From NCBI GenBank assembly GCA_020073395.1, contig JAIQFF010000004.1:1-64000 (forward strand): DNA of 64,000 bases, written 5' to 3'. Source of the stretch: Terriglobia bacterium (GTDB lineage Bacteria; Acidobacteriota; Terriglobia; Terriglobales; Acidobacteriaceae). The stretch's first letter is position 1; the number at the start of each line of letters is the position of its first letter. Shown piece by piece: positions 3,588-57,016 of the stretch. The position numbers and the translations under genes were made by a program. Below the pieces are notes generated by a model. It did no database searches, had not been told where the DNA came from, and worked only from the letters and a program-made list of their open reading frames with translations.

Positions 3588-4952
3588 CTAGGGTCGGGCC
3601 TCGGCGGCCAGGGAGTGTACTACTTCTTTAAAGACCCTTCCCCGGTGCTCGTAGTTCCGGAACTGATCGAAACTGGCGCAGGCCGGGGCCAGGAGAACAA
3701 TGTCCCCAGCCGCAGCCGTCGCCGATGCGCGTCTCAGCGCGGTTTCCAGGGTCTCCGAGTGGTCAACCTCGACGTTCTTGATCTGGGACTCGATCTTTTC
3801 CGCGGCCGCGCCAATCGTATACACCCGCTTGACCCTCTGCCGCAGCAGATCGTTAAGCAGCGTATAGTCGCTGTCTTTGTCCTTGCCACCGAGAATCAGG
3901 TGGACATTTGCCGGGAACGATTCCAGGGCCTTGATGGTCGCATCCACGTTGGTCGCCTTGGAGTCGTTGTAGTACTCCACGTCGCGAATCGTCGCCACAT
4001 ATTCCAGCCGGTGCTCGACCGCTTTGAAGGCGCGGACGGCCTTGGCGATGCGCCCAGGCTCGCAACCCATAAGCACGCCGGCGCAAACCGCGGCCAGCAC
4101 ATTCTCGACGTTGTGGCCTCCCTTCAGCGGTATTTCCGAGGCCAGCATGATCTCGCGCTGGCCCTTGGTATCGCGAAAAAGGACCCGCCCATCGTGGACG
4201 TACGCCCCCTGCTTTACCTCTTCCTTGCGGCTGAACCAGAACACTTGCGCCCGCGTTCGGCCCGCCAGTCCGGCACAGGTGGGATCATCGGCATTCAGGA
4301 CGGCAAAATCTTCCGAATGCTGGTTTTCAAATATGCGCGCCTTGGCGTTGGTGTACGCCTCGAAAGTGCGATGACGGTCAAGGTGGTCGGGCGTGATGTT
4401 GAGCACGACAGCAACTTTTGGACGAAAGGTCTGGATGGTCTCCAACTGGAAGCTCGATACTTCCAGCACCACGACCGTGTCAGCTTTCGCCCGCTCGACC
4501 AGGGAAATTGCCGGGGTGCCGATATTGCCGCCGACAATGGTCGGGAATCCACCCGCCGCGACAATTTCACCGGCCAGCGTGGTGGTCGTAGTTTTTCCGT
4601 TCGAACCGGTGATGGCGACGATGTTCCTCGGCAGGAATTGTGAGGCCAGCTCAATCTCGCCAATCACGGGCTCGCCAAGGGCACGAGCCTGCAGCAGCGG
4701 CGGCGAGTCCACGGGAACGCCGGGGCTGACCACGATCAGGTCCTGCCCCCGAAAAGTACGCTCACCATGCCCGCCGGTTTCGACCACAATGCCGTGATCG
4801 AGCAGGACCGGAATTTCTTCTCCCAGCTGATCTTGCGGCTTGGCATCTGAGACCGTGACCTTCGCACCCCGGGCCTGCAGAAACAAGGCCGAGGCCACGC
4901 CGGATTTGCCCAGGCCGACGACCAGCACGCGTTTGTTGGCAAGATCCATCAA
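3588..4952 (-). CDS. murD: UDP-N-acetylmuramoyl-L-alanine--D-glutamate ligase
   Basis: 454 aa; VVGLGKSGVASALFL, ITGSNGKTTTTTLAGEI Mur ligase P-loop, DHLDRH motif. Confidence 0.95.
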   Translation of the reverse strand: MMDLANKRVLVVGLGKSGVASALFLQARGAKVTVSDAKPQDQLGEEIPVLLDHGIVVETGGHGERTFRGQDLIVVSPGVPVDSPPLLQARALGEPVIGEIELASQFLPRNIVAITGSNGKTTTTTLAGEIVAAGGFPTIVGGNIGTPAISLVERAKADTVVVLEVSSFQLETIQTFRPKVAVVLNITPDHLDRHRTFEAYTNAKARIFENQHSEDFAVLNADDPTCAGLAGRTRAQVFWFSRKEEVKQGAYVHDGRVLFRDTKGQREIMLASEIPLKGGHNVENVLAAVCAGVLMGCEPGRIAKAVRAFKAVEHRLEYVATIRDVEYYNDSKATNVDATIKALESFPANVHLILGGKDKDSDYTLLNDLLRQRVKRVYTIGAAAEKIESQIKNVEVDHSETLETALRRASATAAAGDIVLLAPACASFDQFRNYEHRGRVFKEVVHSLAAEARP

Positions 4953-4962
4953 GAAACTGCTT

Positions 4963-5023
4963 CTGGCTCCCGGCTTCTGGCTTGAAGCCTGTGGTCTTTG
5001 GCTAGTGGCTAGGAGCCAGCAGC
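4963..5023. repeat. Degenerate 7-bp-period tandem array (murD-mraY gap)
   Basis: Phased heptamers GGCTCCC GGCTTCT GGCTTGA AGCCTGT GGTCTTT GGCTAGT GGCTAGG AGCCAGC (4965-5020); ends CTGGCTCC/GGAGCCAG are complementary. Confidence 0.75.
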
Positions 5024-5025
5024 TT

Positions 5026-6159
5026 TTATCTTAGCTTTAGTGTAGTCAGGGCGAACAGGGCAAACACCAGCGATCCGATCCAGAAGCGCACAATAATTTT
5101 TGATTCCGACCAGCCCAGCAGTTCGAAGTGATGGTGCAGCGGCGCCATCTTGAAAATGCGCTTCTTCCTCAATTTGTAGGACACCACTTGAAGAATCACG
5201 GACAGCGCCTCGATCACGAAGATGCCGCCGATGAAGGGTAGCAGCAGTTCCTGCTTGATCATCACGGCCACCGTGCCGATGGCGCCGCCCAAGGCGAGAG
5301 AACCTACGTCTCCCATGAAGACCTCGGCGGGGTGGGCGTTATACCAGAGGAATCCGATGGCCGCTCCTACCATGGCCCCGCAGAAAATCGTCAGTTCGCC
5401 GGCCAGCGGCATGCGCTGCAGTTCAAGATACTGAGCGAAGGTGGCGTGGCCGCTGACGTAGGTAAGCACTGCCAGCGCCCCGGCAGCAATGACGGTGCAC
5501 CCGATGGCCAGACCGTCCAGGCCGTCGGTAAGGTTCACGGCGTTGCTCGACCCGACGATGACCAACACGACAAAAGCGACAAAAGGAAGAAACGCCAAGG
5601 GCCAAAGCGCAGGATTGTTCACCAGCCGTTCGATCACCAGGTCGGGATGAAACTGTTTAATGAAGGGAACCATCAGCTTGGTTGAGTACGAACCCTGGGT
5701 TTGCATGGCAATCAGCGCAACCGCAATCACGACGCTGACGGCAATCTGCAAGCCCAGCTTGGCTCTCGAGGTGAGGCCTAGATTCCTCCGGTTCACCACT
5801 TTGATGTAGTCGTCGGCGAATCCAATGGCGGCGAAGGCGCAGGTGGCAAAAACCGCGATCCAGATAAAGAGGTTGCTCAGATCGGCCCATAACAGCGTCG
5901 GCACAACGATAGAAATGGCGATCAGCAGACCGCCCATGGTCGGCGTGCCGGCCTTCTTCTGATGGGCCTTGGGCCCTTCTTCGCGGATGAACTGTCCGAT
6001 TTGAAATTCGCGCAGACGGTTGATGACGATAGGTCCGACGATGAGTGCCGTGAAAAGGGCGGTGAGGCTGGCGAATGCTGTACGAAATGTCAAATACCGG
6101 AAGATACGAAATGGCGGGAAGTAGTGGAACAGCTTCAGGTACAGCAGCCAGTAGAGCAA
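5026..6159 (-). CDS. mraY: Phospho-N-acetylmuramoyl-pentapeptide transferase
   Basis: 377 aa; [41 protein letters not shown] motifs. Confidence 0.97.
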
Positions 6160-6171
6160 TCAGCCTCCCAT

Positions 6172-6260
6172 CAGTCGTCGGTCTTCAGTCGTCAGAATTC
6201 GATGTTTGAATTAATGATCGGCGGTCTTTGATTTGCCTGACGACCGACGACCGACGACTG
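6172..6260. repeat. 24-bp inverted repeat of heptameric units, overlapping murF 3' end
   Basis: Left arm 6172-6195 CAGTCGTCGGTCTTCAGTCGTCAG; right arm 6237-6260 CTGACGACCGACGACCGACGACTG; 22/24 complementary; both arms have 7-bp period. Confidence 0.85.
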
Positions 6261-7608
6261 CCTCCAAAGCTCGTTCCAACTTTACCCCGCGCGACGCTTT
6301 GAGCAGCACCACGTCGCCTTCGCGCTTTTCGCGTGCCAGCCACTCACCGGCTTCTTCGGGTGTGACCACGAATTCTGCCCTGATTCCGGCGCGGCTTGCG
6401 GCCTCGACCATCTGCTGCGCCAGGCCTCGCACCCCAACTAATATGTCGATCCCCTTGTCCGCCATGTGCTGGCCTGAGCGGCGATGCAGTTCTTCTCCCG
6501 ACGGACCCAGTTCCAGCATCTCGCCCGCGACCACGATGCGGCGCTTGGCTGGCATTGCAGCCAGCGTGTCCACCATCGCGTTCAGCGCCGTTGGATTGGA
6601 ATTGTAACAATCGTTGATGACTGTGATGTTGCCCAGTTGGACGACCGCCCCCCGTTTGTCTGCGGGAGCCAGAGTCGCCAGTGTCTGGGTGGCTTCCGCT
6701 GGGCTCAGGCCTCGCTCGATTCCGGTCGCGACCGCGGCCAGGGCGTTGTAGATATTGTGCGTGCCCACGAGGGGCAAAGTGGCAGCTTCCCGGCAGCCGC
6801 CGGCCACGACATCGAACGCCGAACCGGCCGCGCCGCAGGACTCGATGTTCTCCGCACGCACGTCCGCTGTCTGATGAAGTCCGTAGAGCACAACCTTGCC
6901 GCGAAAGTCGCGGCCGAACTGGGAAACGTACTCGTCGTCGGCATTGAGGATCGCTTTCCCGCCCGCGGGCAGGGCTTCAATCAGTTCGTACTTCGCCCGC
7001 GCGATTTCGGCCACAGACTTGAAGAATTCCAGGTGGACCGGGGCCACGTTGGTGACCACTCCGATTTCGGGCTGCGCGATTTTGGCCAGGGCGGCGATCT
7101 CTCCCCGATGCGACATACCCATCTCGATGACTGCGGCCTCATGTTCAGGCTCGATTTTCAGCAGCATCAGCGGTAGACCGAAATGATTATTGAAGTTGCC
7201 TTCGGACTTCAGCACCCGGAAGCGGGAAGAGAGTACATGGGCAATCGCTTCTTTGGTGGTGGTCTTGCCCGTGGATCCGGTCACACCGATCAGCGGCTTC
7301 GCCCACAAACGGCGGACGGCGGCGCCCAAAGTTTGCAGAGCCACCAGGGTATCTGGCACCGCCAGCAGACGGGTCTTCACCGCATAGCGCGCCAGTTCGT
7401 CCCTGCGGACGACGGCCGCCACGGCACCCTTCTCCAGCGCCTGCTGGACGAAATCGTGGCCATCCATGCGCTCGCCCTTGACCGCAAAAAAGAGCTCACC
7501 GGGCTGGATGGTGCGGGAATCGATCGAGTACGCCTGGGCAATCGCCTTGTGATCGAATTCGCCGGTGGCCGAAATGAATTCGGCGACTCTCGAAAGCGGG
7601 AGTTTCAT
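6211..7608 (-). CDS. murF: UDP-N-acetylmuramoyl-tripeptide--D-alanyl-D-alanine ligase
   Basis: 465 aa; GVTGSTGKTTTKEAIAHVL, YNSNPTAL; ATGA overlap with murE at 7605-7608. Confidence 0.95.
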   Translation of the reverse strand: MKLPLSRVAEFISATGEFDHKAIAQAYSIDSRTIQPGELFFAVKGERMDGHDFVQQALEKGAVAAVVRRDELARYAVKTRLLAVPDTLVALQTLGAAVRRLWAKPLIGVTGSTGKTTTKEAIAHVLSSRFRVLKSEGNFNNHFGLPLMLLKIEPEHEAAVIEMGMSHRGEIAALAKIAQPEIGVVTNVAPVHLEFFKSVAEIARAKYELIEALPAGGKAILNADDEYVSQFGRDFRGKVVLYGLHQTADVRAENIESCGAAGSAFDVVAGGCREAATLPLVGTHNIYNALAAVATGIERGLSPAEATQTLATLAPADKRGAVVQLGNITVINDCYNSNPTALNAMVDTLAAMPAKRRIVVAGEMLELGPSGEELHRRSGQHMADKGIDILVGVRGLAQQMVEAASRAGIRAEFVVTPEEAGEWLAREKREGDVVLLKASRGVKLERALEAVVGRRSSGKSKTADH

Positions 7609-38572: not shown

Positions 38573-38612
38573 TTCGTTAGAACATGATCTAGAACAATGT
38601 CATCTAGAACAA

Positions 38613-38816
38613 ATGTCATCCTGAGCGGAGGCTTTCCATTCGCTTGCGAATGGAAAGCCGGAGTCGAAGGACCCCTACCGTACAGGAACTGTATTTGAAC
38701 AAGGATTTTTCGCAAGCTGCAATGTAATGTTCGTACCCAGCGGTGTGGAGGAGTAGGGGTCCTTCGACTCCATGACTGCTTCGCGAAGCGAAGCAGTCGC
38801 TCCGCTCAGGATGACA
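38613..38816. repeat. Family A paired palindromic element (copy A6/A6')
   Basis: TGTCATCCTGAGCGGAGGCTTTCCATTCGCTTGCGAATGGAAAGCCGGAGTCGAAGGACCCCTA and inverted arm 38754-38816. Confidence 0.9.
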
Positions 38817-52982: not shown

Positions 52983-52990
52983 GGCGGAGC

Positions 52991-53147
52991 AATTGGCAGT
53001 TAGCAATTGGCATTTGGCTGGAGATCCCAGCTTGCAGAGTGCCCCGTCCAAGTTCCGCTTGGGCGGGGCTTTTCTGTGGCCACACCCTCGCTGAGGATGA
53101 TTCAAGAACCCTCAGATCGCTTGACCAAGCTCCAAATGCCAATTGCT
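52991..53147. repeat. Heptameric array with 16-bp inverted repeat flanking a terminator
   Basis: AATTGGC AGTTAGC AATTGGC ATTTGGC (52991-53018); AGCAATTGGCATTTGG (53002-53017) exactly complementary to CCAAATGCCAATTGCT (53132-53147). Confidence 0.75.
53041..53075 (+). terminator. Rho-independent terminator-like hairpin
   Basis: GCCCCGTCCAAG-TTCCG-CTTGGGCGGGGC followed by TTTTCT. Confidence 0.7.
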
Positions 53148-53152
53148 GCCTC

Positions 53153-54976
53153 TCAGCCCTTCTTCCTTTCCAGTTCAGCCCAACGCCGATAAAGTTCGTC
53201 AACCTGGTTCTGAGCGTCTTCCATCTCCGCATGCGCGCTGAGAAGACGCGGACCGTCGCTGGCAATCGCCGGGTCCTCCAGTTGTTCTCGCTTGGCCTGC
53301 AATAGCTCTTCCGCCGCAGCAACGCGCTCCTCGATGCTTGCATATTCGCGGGCTTCTAGATATGAGAGCTTGGTTTTCGCCGGCGATCTTCCATCAGAGC
53401 TTTCAGAGCGAGACGTGGAACGCGTAGAGGCCCTCGCCGATTCCCTTCCCTCGGCCTGCCAAATCTCCCATTGCGAGTAGTCGGCAAAACTTTGCGCGCC
53501 GCCTCGTCCATCCAGCCCAAGAACGATGGTGGATACGCGATCAAGCATGTAGCGGTCGTGCGTAACCAGCACCAGCGAACCCCTGAACTCGAGCAGGCTT
53601 TCTTCCAGAATTTCGAGTGTCGGAATGTCGAGGTCGTTGGTCGGTTCGTCGAGCAGCAACACATCGGCGGGCTGAAGCATGAGTTGGGCGATCAGCACTC
53701 GCGCCCGCTCGCCACCGGAAAGACGTTCTACAGGCTGATTGAGCTGCTCCCCGGTAAACAGGAATTTTGCCGCCCACGACGCCACGTGGATGACCCGGTC
53801 CTGATAGATCACCGAATCGCCTTCGGGAGCCAGGGCGCGGCGCAGGGTTACCTTGGAATCGAGTTCGCGGGTCTGGTCGAAGTACACGATACGCAGCCAC
53901 TCCGCCCGGCGAATCTCGCCACCGCTTGCGGTCAACTCGCCGCGCAACAGCCGCAGCAAAGTGGTTTTGCCGCTGCCATTTGGCCCTACTAATCCTACCC
54001 GCATGCCAGCAGTGATGACGAAATTCAGCTTTTCGAACAATGTGCGGTTTTCGATCTGGTAAGCCACGTCTTCCAGTTCGATCAGCCGCTTAGTCTTTCG
54101 ATCGGTTGCCGAAAAATCGATTTGCGCGGTGGCCGTGCGCGTCCTGACGTTCAGGTCTGCGAGGTCTTCCATCAGTTCACTGGCTTTGCTGATGCGCGCC
54201 TTGGACTTCCTGGTCCGCGCTTTCGCCCCGCGTCGGAGCCACTCAATTTCGTTGTGGACAAGGTTTTCCAGCGCTTCCTGCCGCTTCGATTGTGCGTGCA
54301 GAAACTCTTCTTTCTTTTCCAGAAACGTGCTGTAGTTTCCCCGCACCCGCAGTATGCCATCGGGATACACTCGGCTCAGCTCCGCCATGTCGGTGGCGAT
54401 ATTCTCCAGAAAATAGCGGTCGTGGCTCACGATCACGCTGGCGAATGAAGCTTGCGCCAGCACGTCTTCGAGCCACTCGATTCCTTCCAGGTCGAGATGG
54501 TTGGTAGGCTCATCCAGAAGCAGAAGGTCCGGCGCCTGCACCAGGGCCTCGACGATTGCCAGGCGCTTCTGCCATCCTCCGGAAAGAGCCGCCGCTTCGG
54601 CGTCGAGGTCTTCGAAACCGGCGCGGCCCAGGGTTTCAGCGAAGCGCGTCCCGCGTTCCGTGGCATGGACTGCACCCCGTTCCATGGCGTTTTCAGCCAC
54701 GGACCGCACGGTCGCCCCGGACTTGAATTTGGAATCCTGCTCCACGTAGCTGACCCGGAGCCGTTTTCGGAAGGCGACTTCTCCGCTGTCCGGATCTTCA
54801 CTGCCGGCCAGAATTCGCAGCAGGGTGGATTTGCCGGAGCCGTTCGGACCAATGAGCCCGATGCGGTCGCCTTCCGTCACTGTGAAGGACACATTCTGAA
54901 AGAGCGGGTTGGCCCCAAAGGCTTTCGAAATTTCCTGAACATTAATGATTGGCGGCAACGGCTGGCGGTCTCCCAA
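53153..54976 (-). CDS. ABC-F family ATPase Uup-like
   Basis: Two ABC domains, LLLDEPTNHLDLEGIEWLE, LLLDEPTNDLDIPTLEIL, C-terminal coiled coil. Confidence 0.9.
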   Translation of the reverse strand: MGDRQPLPPIINVQEISKAFGANPLFQNVSFTVTEGDRIGLIGPNGSGKSTLLRILAGSEDPDSGEVAFRKRLRVSYVEQDSKFKSGATVRSVAENAMERGAVHATERGTRFAETLGRAGFEDLDAEAAALSGGWQKRLAIVEALVQAPDLLLLDEPTNHLDLEGIEWLEDVLAQASFASVIVSHDRYFLENIATDMAELSRVYPDGILRVRGNYSTFLEKKEEFLHAQSKRQEALENLVHNEIEWLRRGAKARTRKSKARISKASELMEDLADLNVRTRTATAQIDFSATDRKTKRLIELEDVAYQIENRTLFEKLNFVITAGMRVGLVGPNGSGKTTLLRLLRGELTASGGEIRRAEWLRIVYFDQTRELDSKVTLRRALAPEGDSVIYQDRVIHVASWAAKFLFTGEQLNQPVERLSGGERARVLIAQLMLQPADVLLLDEPTNDLDIPTLEILEESLLEFRGSLVLVTHDRYMLDRVSTIVLGLDGRGGAQSFADYSQWEIWQAEGRESARASTRSTSRSESSDGRSPAKTKLSYLEAREYASIEERVAAAEELLQAKREQLEDPAIASDGPRLLSAHAEMEDAQNQVDELYRRWAELERKKG

Positions 54977-56865: not shown

Positions 56866-56903
56866 GAGCTTTTCCTTTCAGGAGTAGCTGGTTAGACGAG
56901 AGC

Positions 56904-56945
56904 AATTGGCAATTGGCAATTGGCAATTGGCAATTGGCAATTGGC
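56904..56945. repeat. Perfect (AATTGGC)6 heptamer tandem repeat
   Basis: Six exact consecutive copies of AATTGGC in the lldD-lctP gap. Confidence 0.95.
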
Positions 56946-57016
56946 ACTCAGCCATCAGTCCCAAAGCAAGAAATCGCCGAGCCTGAGCTAAGCGCTAATT
57001 GCCAAGTGCTGTTTCT

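Follow-up and report, generated by a model that had tools for sequence, protein, structure and literature searches.

The gap between murD and mraY in this acidobacterial DNA consists of short units in a strict 7-bp phase. This raises the question as to whether the array is a local oddity, a functional element of the mur operon or one member of a larger class of intergenic repeats, and whether such arrays have anything in common beyond their period. We addressed this question for the 64,000-nucleotide stretch that contains the array (the window), for a larger sample of the same genome (G000) and for other bacteria. The genes concerned and the focal array are:

3588–4952, minus strand: murD (Pfam Mur_ligase_M, MurD-like_N and Mur_ligase_C)
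4958–5023, no strand assigned: focal array of heptads, which occupies the murD|mraY gap (lag-7 and palindrome scores)
5026–6159, minus strand: mraY (Pfam Glycos_transf_4 and MraY_sig1)
6211–7608, minus strand: murF (Pfam Mur ligase domains; gene order and alignment with relatives)

The 76-bp murD|mraY gap is a single 7-bp-phased array (4958–5023; lag-7 score 18, internal palindrome score 15), which reads from position 4960 as CTTCTGG, CTCCCGG, CTTCTGG, CTTGAAG, CCTGTGG, TCTTTGG, CTAGTGG, CTAGGAG and CCAGCAG, followed by a C. These nine heptads keep one frame from 4960 to 5022 and leave 2 bp before the mraY stop codon. When all sampled intergenic DNA was dinucleotide-shuffled five times, no segment scored 14 or more; TRF alone detects 4959–4983, about half of the array. 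The left part (4960–4980) is made of units with a YYRG core (CTGG, CCGG, CTGG), and the right part (5002–5023), with CYRG-core units (CTAG, CTAG, CCAG), is its imperfect reverse complement. Some units (AGCC...) are accordingly the reverse complement of others (GGCT...), giving the array a mirror layout. The array is the most degenerate of four examined sites, and its DNA hairpin is barely more stable than what shuffled sequence gives (z -1.66; 12 of 200 shuffles were equally good). The original prediction had read the gap as eight consecutive heptamers in one frame, which is correct and corresponds to our nine in another rotation, but it had overlooked the mirror layout. It had also placed a 7-bp period at three other sites of the window, and TRF and lag-7 scores bear this out for all three:

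6170–6195, no strand assigned: left arm of the murF|mraY element, TCAGTCGTCGGTCTTCAGTCGTCAG (lag-7 score 10; inverted partner at 6238–6258; fold z -5.4)
6238–6258, no strand assigned: right arm of the murF|mraY element, GACGACCGACGACCGACGAC (TRF, 2.9 copies of GACGACC)
52988–53018, no strand assigned: left arm, GCAATTGGCAGTTAGCAATTGGCATTTGGC (lag-7 score 13; weak inverted partner at about 53131–53155)
56901–56958, no strand assigned: left arm, six perfect GCAATTG copies, then GGCACTC, AGCCATC and AG in frame (TRF score 90, lag-7 score 40)

The segments 6170–6195 and 6238–6258 are the two arms of a single inverted pair, of which the second encodes, on the minus strand, part of an extended murF C-terminus. 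The murF product ends at residue 465, and most relatives' murF align only to residue ~449–462; where the frame crosses the heptad arm (6211–6260) it gains a C-terminal extension of ~16 residues that is absent in most relatives. The perfect GCAATTG run (6.4 copies by TRF, 56902–56946) has its array's inverted partner at about 56986–57012, GCTAAGCGCTAATTGCCAAGTGCT, and an exact search of 40 relatives found this array in G000 only. A strong intrinsic terminator-like hairpin with a T-run lies at 53041–53069, in the loop between the arms at 52988–53018 and ~53131–53155, so heptad arms can flank other intergenic signals. A separate repeat, TCATCCTGAG / CTCAGGATGA, occurs at 38585–38640 of the window and at L019 14293–14512, with ~20 copies per orientation in the 1.1 Mb sampled; the L019 copy sits between heptad arms.

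Is period 7 a property of the genome as a whole? The assembly is a 5.54-Mb draft in 311 contigs, and we analysed a sample of ~1.1 Mb, with genes called by a simple longest-ORF rule. In intergenic DNA the match rates at lags 7, 14 and 21 are 0.266, 0.265 and 0.268, vs. ~0.255 at lags that are multiples of neither 3 nor 7; in coding DNA the rate at lag 7 (0.2505) is at background level. Period-7 segments scoring at least 10 number 81 in 1.1 Mb, vs. 0.6 in dinucleotide shuffles, and those scoring at least 14 number 42 vs. 0.0, while other periods below 13 give 2–14 segments each. For 80 of 113 segments under half of the length lies within called ORFs, a figure to be read with the knowledge that the longest-ORF rule makes intergenic boundaries approximate and leaves some 'coding' arrays in spurious ORFs or gene ends. 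The autocorrelation and shuffle comparison put forward with the original prediction therefore supports it, both in the intergenic period-7 signal and in the further arrays, and by extrapolation we estimate several hundred arrays in the whole genome.

Typical elements have two mutually inverted arms on either side of a loop, and in the printed gaps these parts often span the whole gap together; loops are 9–218 bp long (39 measured stems). An inverted partner within 250 bp accompanies 53 of 79 arrays, vs. a direct partner in 4, and matches to the flanks of unrelated arrays number 8. Several elements with two arms have a much stronger fold than shuffled sequence (z -5 to -10), and period-8 elements have the same inverted layout. 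Outside the common unit families, an element's own arm scores 15.9, vs. 5.6 against other elements; within the common families an arm matches its own partner best in only about half of cases, so homogenisation within elements is not clear-cut. Array gaps lie between co-directional (31), convergent (7) and divergent genes (4), vs. 230, 107 and 102, respectively (p=0.024). This co-directional excess is weak and fits a passive repeat and an RNA function alike.

The 79 arrays fall into 38 distinct unit classes, and thus no single sequence is being copied. What the units do share is a C-Y-R-R core (YYRG on the other strand), present in 70 of the 79 arrays, vs. 35 expected with unit letters shuffled and a maximum of 46 in 300 shuffles. 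CYRA occurs in 61 (22 expected), and the reversed motif ARYC is at its null level (24 vs. 22). In 229 of 247 units the middle of the core is CG or a dinucleotide that differs from it by transitions only (CA, TG or TA). The unit sequences are hence not unrelated, as had been claimed, and the accompanying statement that the loci have period, not sequence, in common stands in its first half only: period 7 is genome-wide, but inverted layout, arm orientation and a degenerate core are common property as well.

The orientation of the arms follows a rule. In paired elements of this genome the first arm is the YYRG arm in 48 cases vs. 2, whichever strand is read. Since the core was noticed and first tested in this same genome, the fair test lies elsewhere. 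Among other phyla 29 elements follow the rule and 4 oppose it (14 to 4, p=0.03, once the family used to find the loci is left out); other Acidobacteriota give 6 to 2, which is not significant. A G+T-rich (keto-rich) first arm is seen in 42 vs. 8 cases in other phyla, in 25 vs. 10 in G000 and, for period-8 arrays, in 16 vs. 2 in two sets from outside G000. We considered whether the rule is, in general terms, one of a keto-rich 5' arm and rejected this, as the bias is absent in other Acidobacteriota at period 7 (8:7). The YYRG-arm-first rule is real in G000 and likely to be general beyond it.

How stable are these elements? The sister species G001 belongs to the same genus (MraY 97%, DNA about 80–84% identity). 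The murF|mraY element is common to both; the loop remnants are the same and the right arms similar, and the left arms differ in their number of units. The murD|mraY gap of G001 holds a different palindrome, GGAGACACGGAGGCACGGAG..., and that of G022 is ~15 bp. In a further orthologous block, 4 of 4 array gaps in G001 keep an array of the same family with changed units. The comparison of orthologous gaps for unit turnover, also proposed at the outset, thus finds a same-family element with changed units in 5 of 6 gaps, the focal gap being the exception; with 5 of 6 retained, turnover is real but slower than the murD|mraY case suggested. Between G000 and G001, identity in that block is 80% for arms, 63% for loops and 85% for nearby coding DNA, the arm value being inflated by the resemblance that two same-family arrays have anyway; selection could be an alternative cause of the better conservation of arms over loops. 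The murD|mraY gap of L102 (G001) and the mur gaps of G007, G014, G043, G044 and G052 contain a palindrome of another type, with CACAGAG / CACGGAG units and a period of ~8–9, which suggests a second class of inverted short-period elements. G001 also carries a GC-rich repeat of the GACAGCCGGCGGGACGGCGGCGCTAC type (L071 6567–6611 and L054 8677–8836), in ~30 or more copies with ~84–94% identity.

On a wider scale the arrays are patchy across many phyla. An exact 26-base array pattern matched more than 120 contigs among GTDB species genomes. The contigs span many phyla, with Acidobacteria, Deltaproteobacteria, Chloroflexi, Verrucomicrobia, Planctomycetes and a Lyngbya among them, and many of the matched loci are also two-armed. 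A four-unit CYRA pattern gave 0 to 3457 matches in 119 Acidobacteriota genomes, variable within genera; the reversed-pattern control in such genome scans is an unclean null, since heptad arrays can match it too. By lag-7 scoring, array density is ~300 per Mb in one Acidobacteriota genome and 0 in the samples of two relatives.

We infer how the arrays may form from what is directly observed: the 7-bp period, mirrored arms, a single unit family in each element, the core, the orientation, persistence in two species with turnover and the patchy spread. On balance, they are probably DNA-level intergenic repeats that arise by slippage and fold-back template switching and are tolerated between genes, with no need for a sequence-level function. 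Slipped-strand mispairing would expand and contract the heptads; the nascent strand could then fold back, and template switching would copy one arm into the other, which may be why both arms keep unit and phase while the loop drifts. Since 7 is not divisible by 3, genes would exclude arrays, which would then accumulate in gaps and sometimes invade a gene end, as in murF. For the mur operon, any consequence would be a by-product.

The elements could instead function in the RNA, as hairpins between genes of one transcript that stabilise the mRNA or act in attenuation or termination, a role that has been proposed for REP/BIME. The enrichment of co-directional gaps and rarity of divergent ones, the strong folds of several two-armed elements and the better conservation of arms than loops would suit such a role. 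Contrary to RNA pairing, however, arm mismatches oriented by transcription show no sense-strand excess of G.T (29) over A.C (36). The focal array folds weakly, its hairpin is swapped for another palindrome in G001 and its gap shrinks to ~15 bp in G022. T-tracts are absent after the arms, and terminator-like sites near arrays are not clearly above shuffles; a search for Rho-independent terminators (3 found vs. 1.9 in shuffles) gave, at the focal array, a weak match at 4972–4989 alone, on the strand opposite the genes. Rfam has no match at gathering score in the 64-kb window. The mismatch counts, together with the lack of a terminator or Rfam family at the arrays, disfavour the RNA reading, which we consider rather unlikely. 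Rho utilisation through periodic YC was also rejected, as TTGGCAA units, inspected by eye, have no YC.

Slippage with template switching, our preferred reading, does not by itself predict the YYRG/CYRR core or the one-sided arm orientation, and universal slippage without a genome-specific factor leaves loads of thousands vs. none, even among congeners, unaccounted for. The core and fixed orientation in this genome, together with the unrelated phyla and the period-8 arrays, could point to one trans-acting activity (e.g. a primase, hairpin nuclease, HUH enzyme or template-switching polymerase) that builds and maintains heptad hairpins, in which case bacterial 'heptameric repeats' would be products of one process; we rate this bolder proposal as unlikely. 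The same core, exceeding composition while its reversed control stays at the null, the strict phase and the orientation kept in other phyla would also be expected of binding-site arrays, in which a DNA-binding or nucleoid protein recognises the YYRG core at 7-bp intervals (two thirds of a helical turn, with 21 bp making two turns). Such arrays, however, do not need mirrored arms or units that change family from element to element, the three positions outside the core vary freely between families and the load varies within a single genus, all of which makes this explanation quite improbable.

REP elements and GTAG- or CGTC-tagged palindromes are likewise small, intergenic and high-copy, with a degenerate YR tag (PMC3733652), and a dispersed REP- or MITE-type mobile element moved by an HUH (Y1) transposase has to be weighed. 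REP tags degenerate to GYRG (PMC3733652), similar to the YYRG core; element presence in gaps varies between relatives, and array counts correlate with Y1_Tnp copies across 119 Acidobacteriota genomes (rho 0.46, or 0.40 with genome size accounted for), G000 having 8 copies. Yet 7 of 35 array-rich genomes are without any Y1_Tnp, and genomes with up to 17 show no array match, so that dependence on Y1 transposases is unlikely in view of these clear exceptions to the correlation. REPs have a short fixed stem with the tag outside it (PMC3733652), whereas here the stem is the heptad array, in many families, and elements inspected by eye showed no constant flank beside it. Near-identical copies and constant terminal inverted repeats, the hallmarks of MITEs, are not seen: the elements have no common termini, and the loops are unique. 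The focal 70 bp have no close genomic copy, the next best being 78% identical, which also argues against dispersed copies of one element. Unique loops and array-rich genomes without Y1 transposases disfavour REP-like mobility despite the correlated copy numbers, and we regard it as very improbable. Finally, the partial TRF detection and weak fold of the focal array would suit a chance or low-complexity artefact, but this reading is ruled out by the shuffle test, with an excess confined to period 7 and its multiples in intergenic DNA and agreement from independent genomes.

Among known repeats, heptamers of intergenic DNA come closest, in particular the GGGAATC repeats of Xanthomonas with their convergent pairs. 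These form degenerate intergenic arrays genome-wide, with 70 cases in Xcc being convergent inverted pairs; they lie mostly between co-directional ORFs, rarely between divergent ones, and vary in length and sequence in the same gaps across species (PMC4692102). Inverted pairs likewise predominate here, and the Xanthomonas unit, read as ...TCGGGAATCGGG, has a YYRG core and obeys the arm rule if 'convergent' means GGGAATC arm first. Xanthomonas differs in having one G-rich, quadruplex-forming family per genome; in this genome, of another phylum, there are tens of more degenerate families without G-tracts, and the G-quadruplex-forming GGGANTN unit is absent from the listed unit classes. The GGGGA(C/T)T heptanucleotides of Nostoc and the STRRs of Calothrix are likewise tandem and intergenic, as cited in PMC4692102, and the resemblance to cyanobacterial STRRs raised with the original prediction may hold in these two respects; for Nostoc the same account reports few inverted pairs, unlike the arrays here, and the Xanthomonas pairs are the better match. 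TAACTGA repeats of marine Beggiatoaceae are intergenic heptamers, patchy across phyla, and contain CTGA, the commonest core in our arrays; they differ in their one fixed unit, their location near start codons and their 169 direct sets vs. one indirect (PMC4679880).

As cited in PMC4679880 and PMC4692102, the survey of Mrazek et al. 2007 found that, in most genomes, no other class of long units is as abundant as heptanucleotides, and proposed slippage as the cause of bacterial heptamers. With overlong tandem runs of 7-nt units in non-coding DNA, the present arrays are heptameric long simple sequence repeats (LSSRs). The definition of LSSRs, as cited there, asks for statistically long runs and would largely pass over arrays as degenerate as the focal one. 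We found neither the mirror layout nor an orientation rule described for LSSRs in those two citing papers. A description of many unit families with a common core and an orientation rule was likewise not found in a search mostly without subscription papers, which is no proof of novelty. The arrays extend the known class of bacterial heptameric repeats.

For annotation, the arrays carry a warning, in that their units may be misread as gene ends, as in murF. The bacterial preference for seven-base repeats has lacked an explanation since the 2007 survey, if not longer. Arms in mirror image, a single unit family for each element, a leading YYRG arm and loops that drift faster than the arms are constraints on any mechanism, and relatives that differ widely in array load offer a natural comparison for locating the responsible factor.
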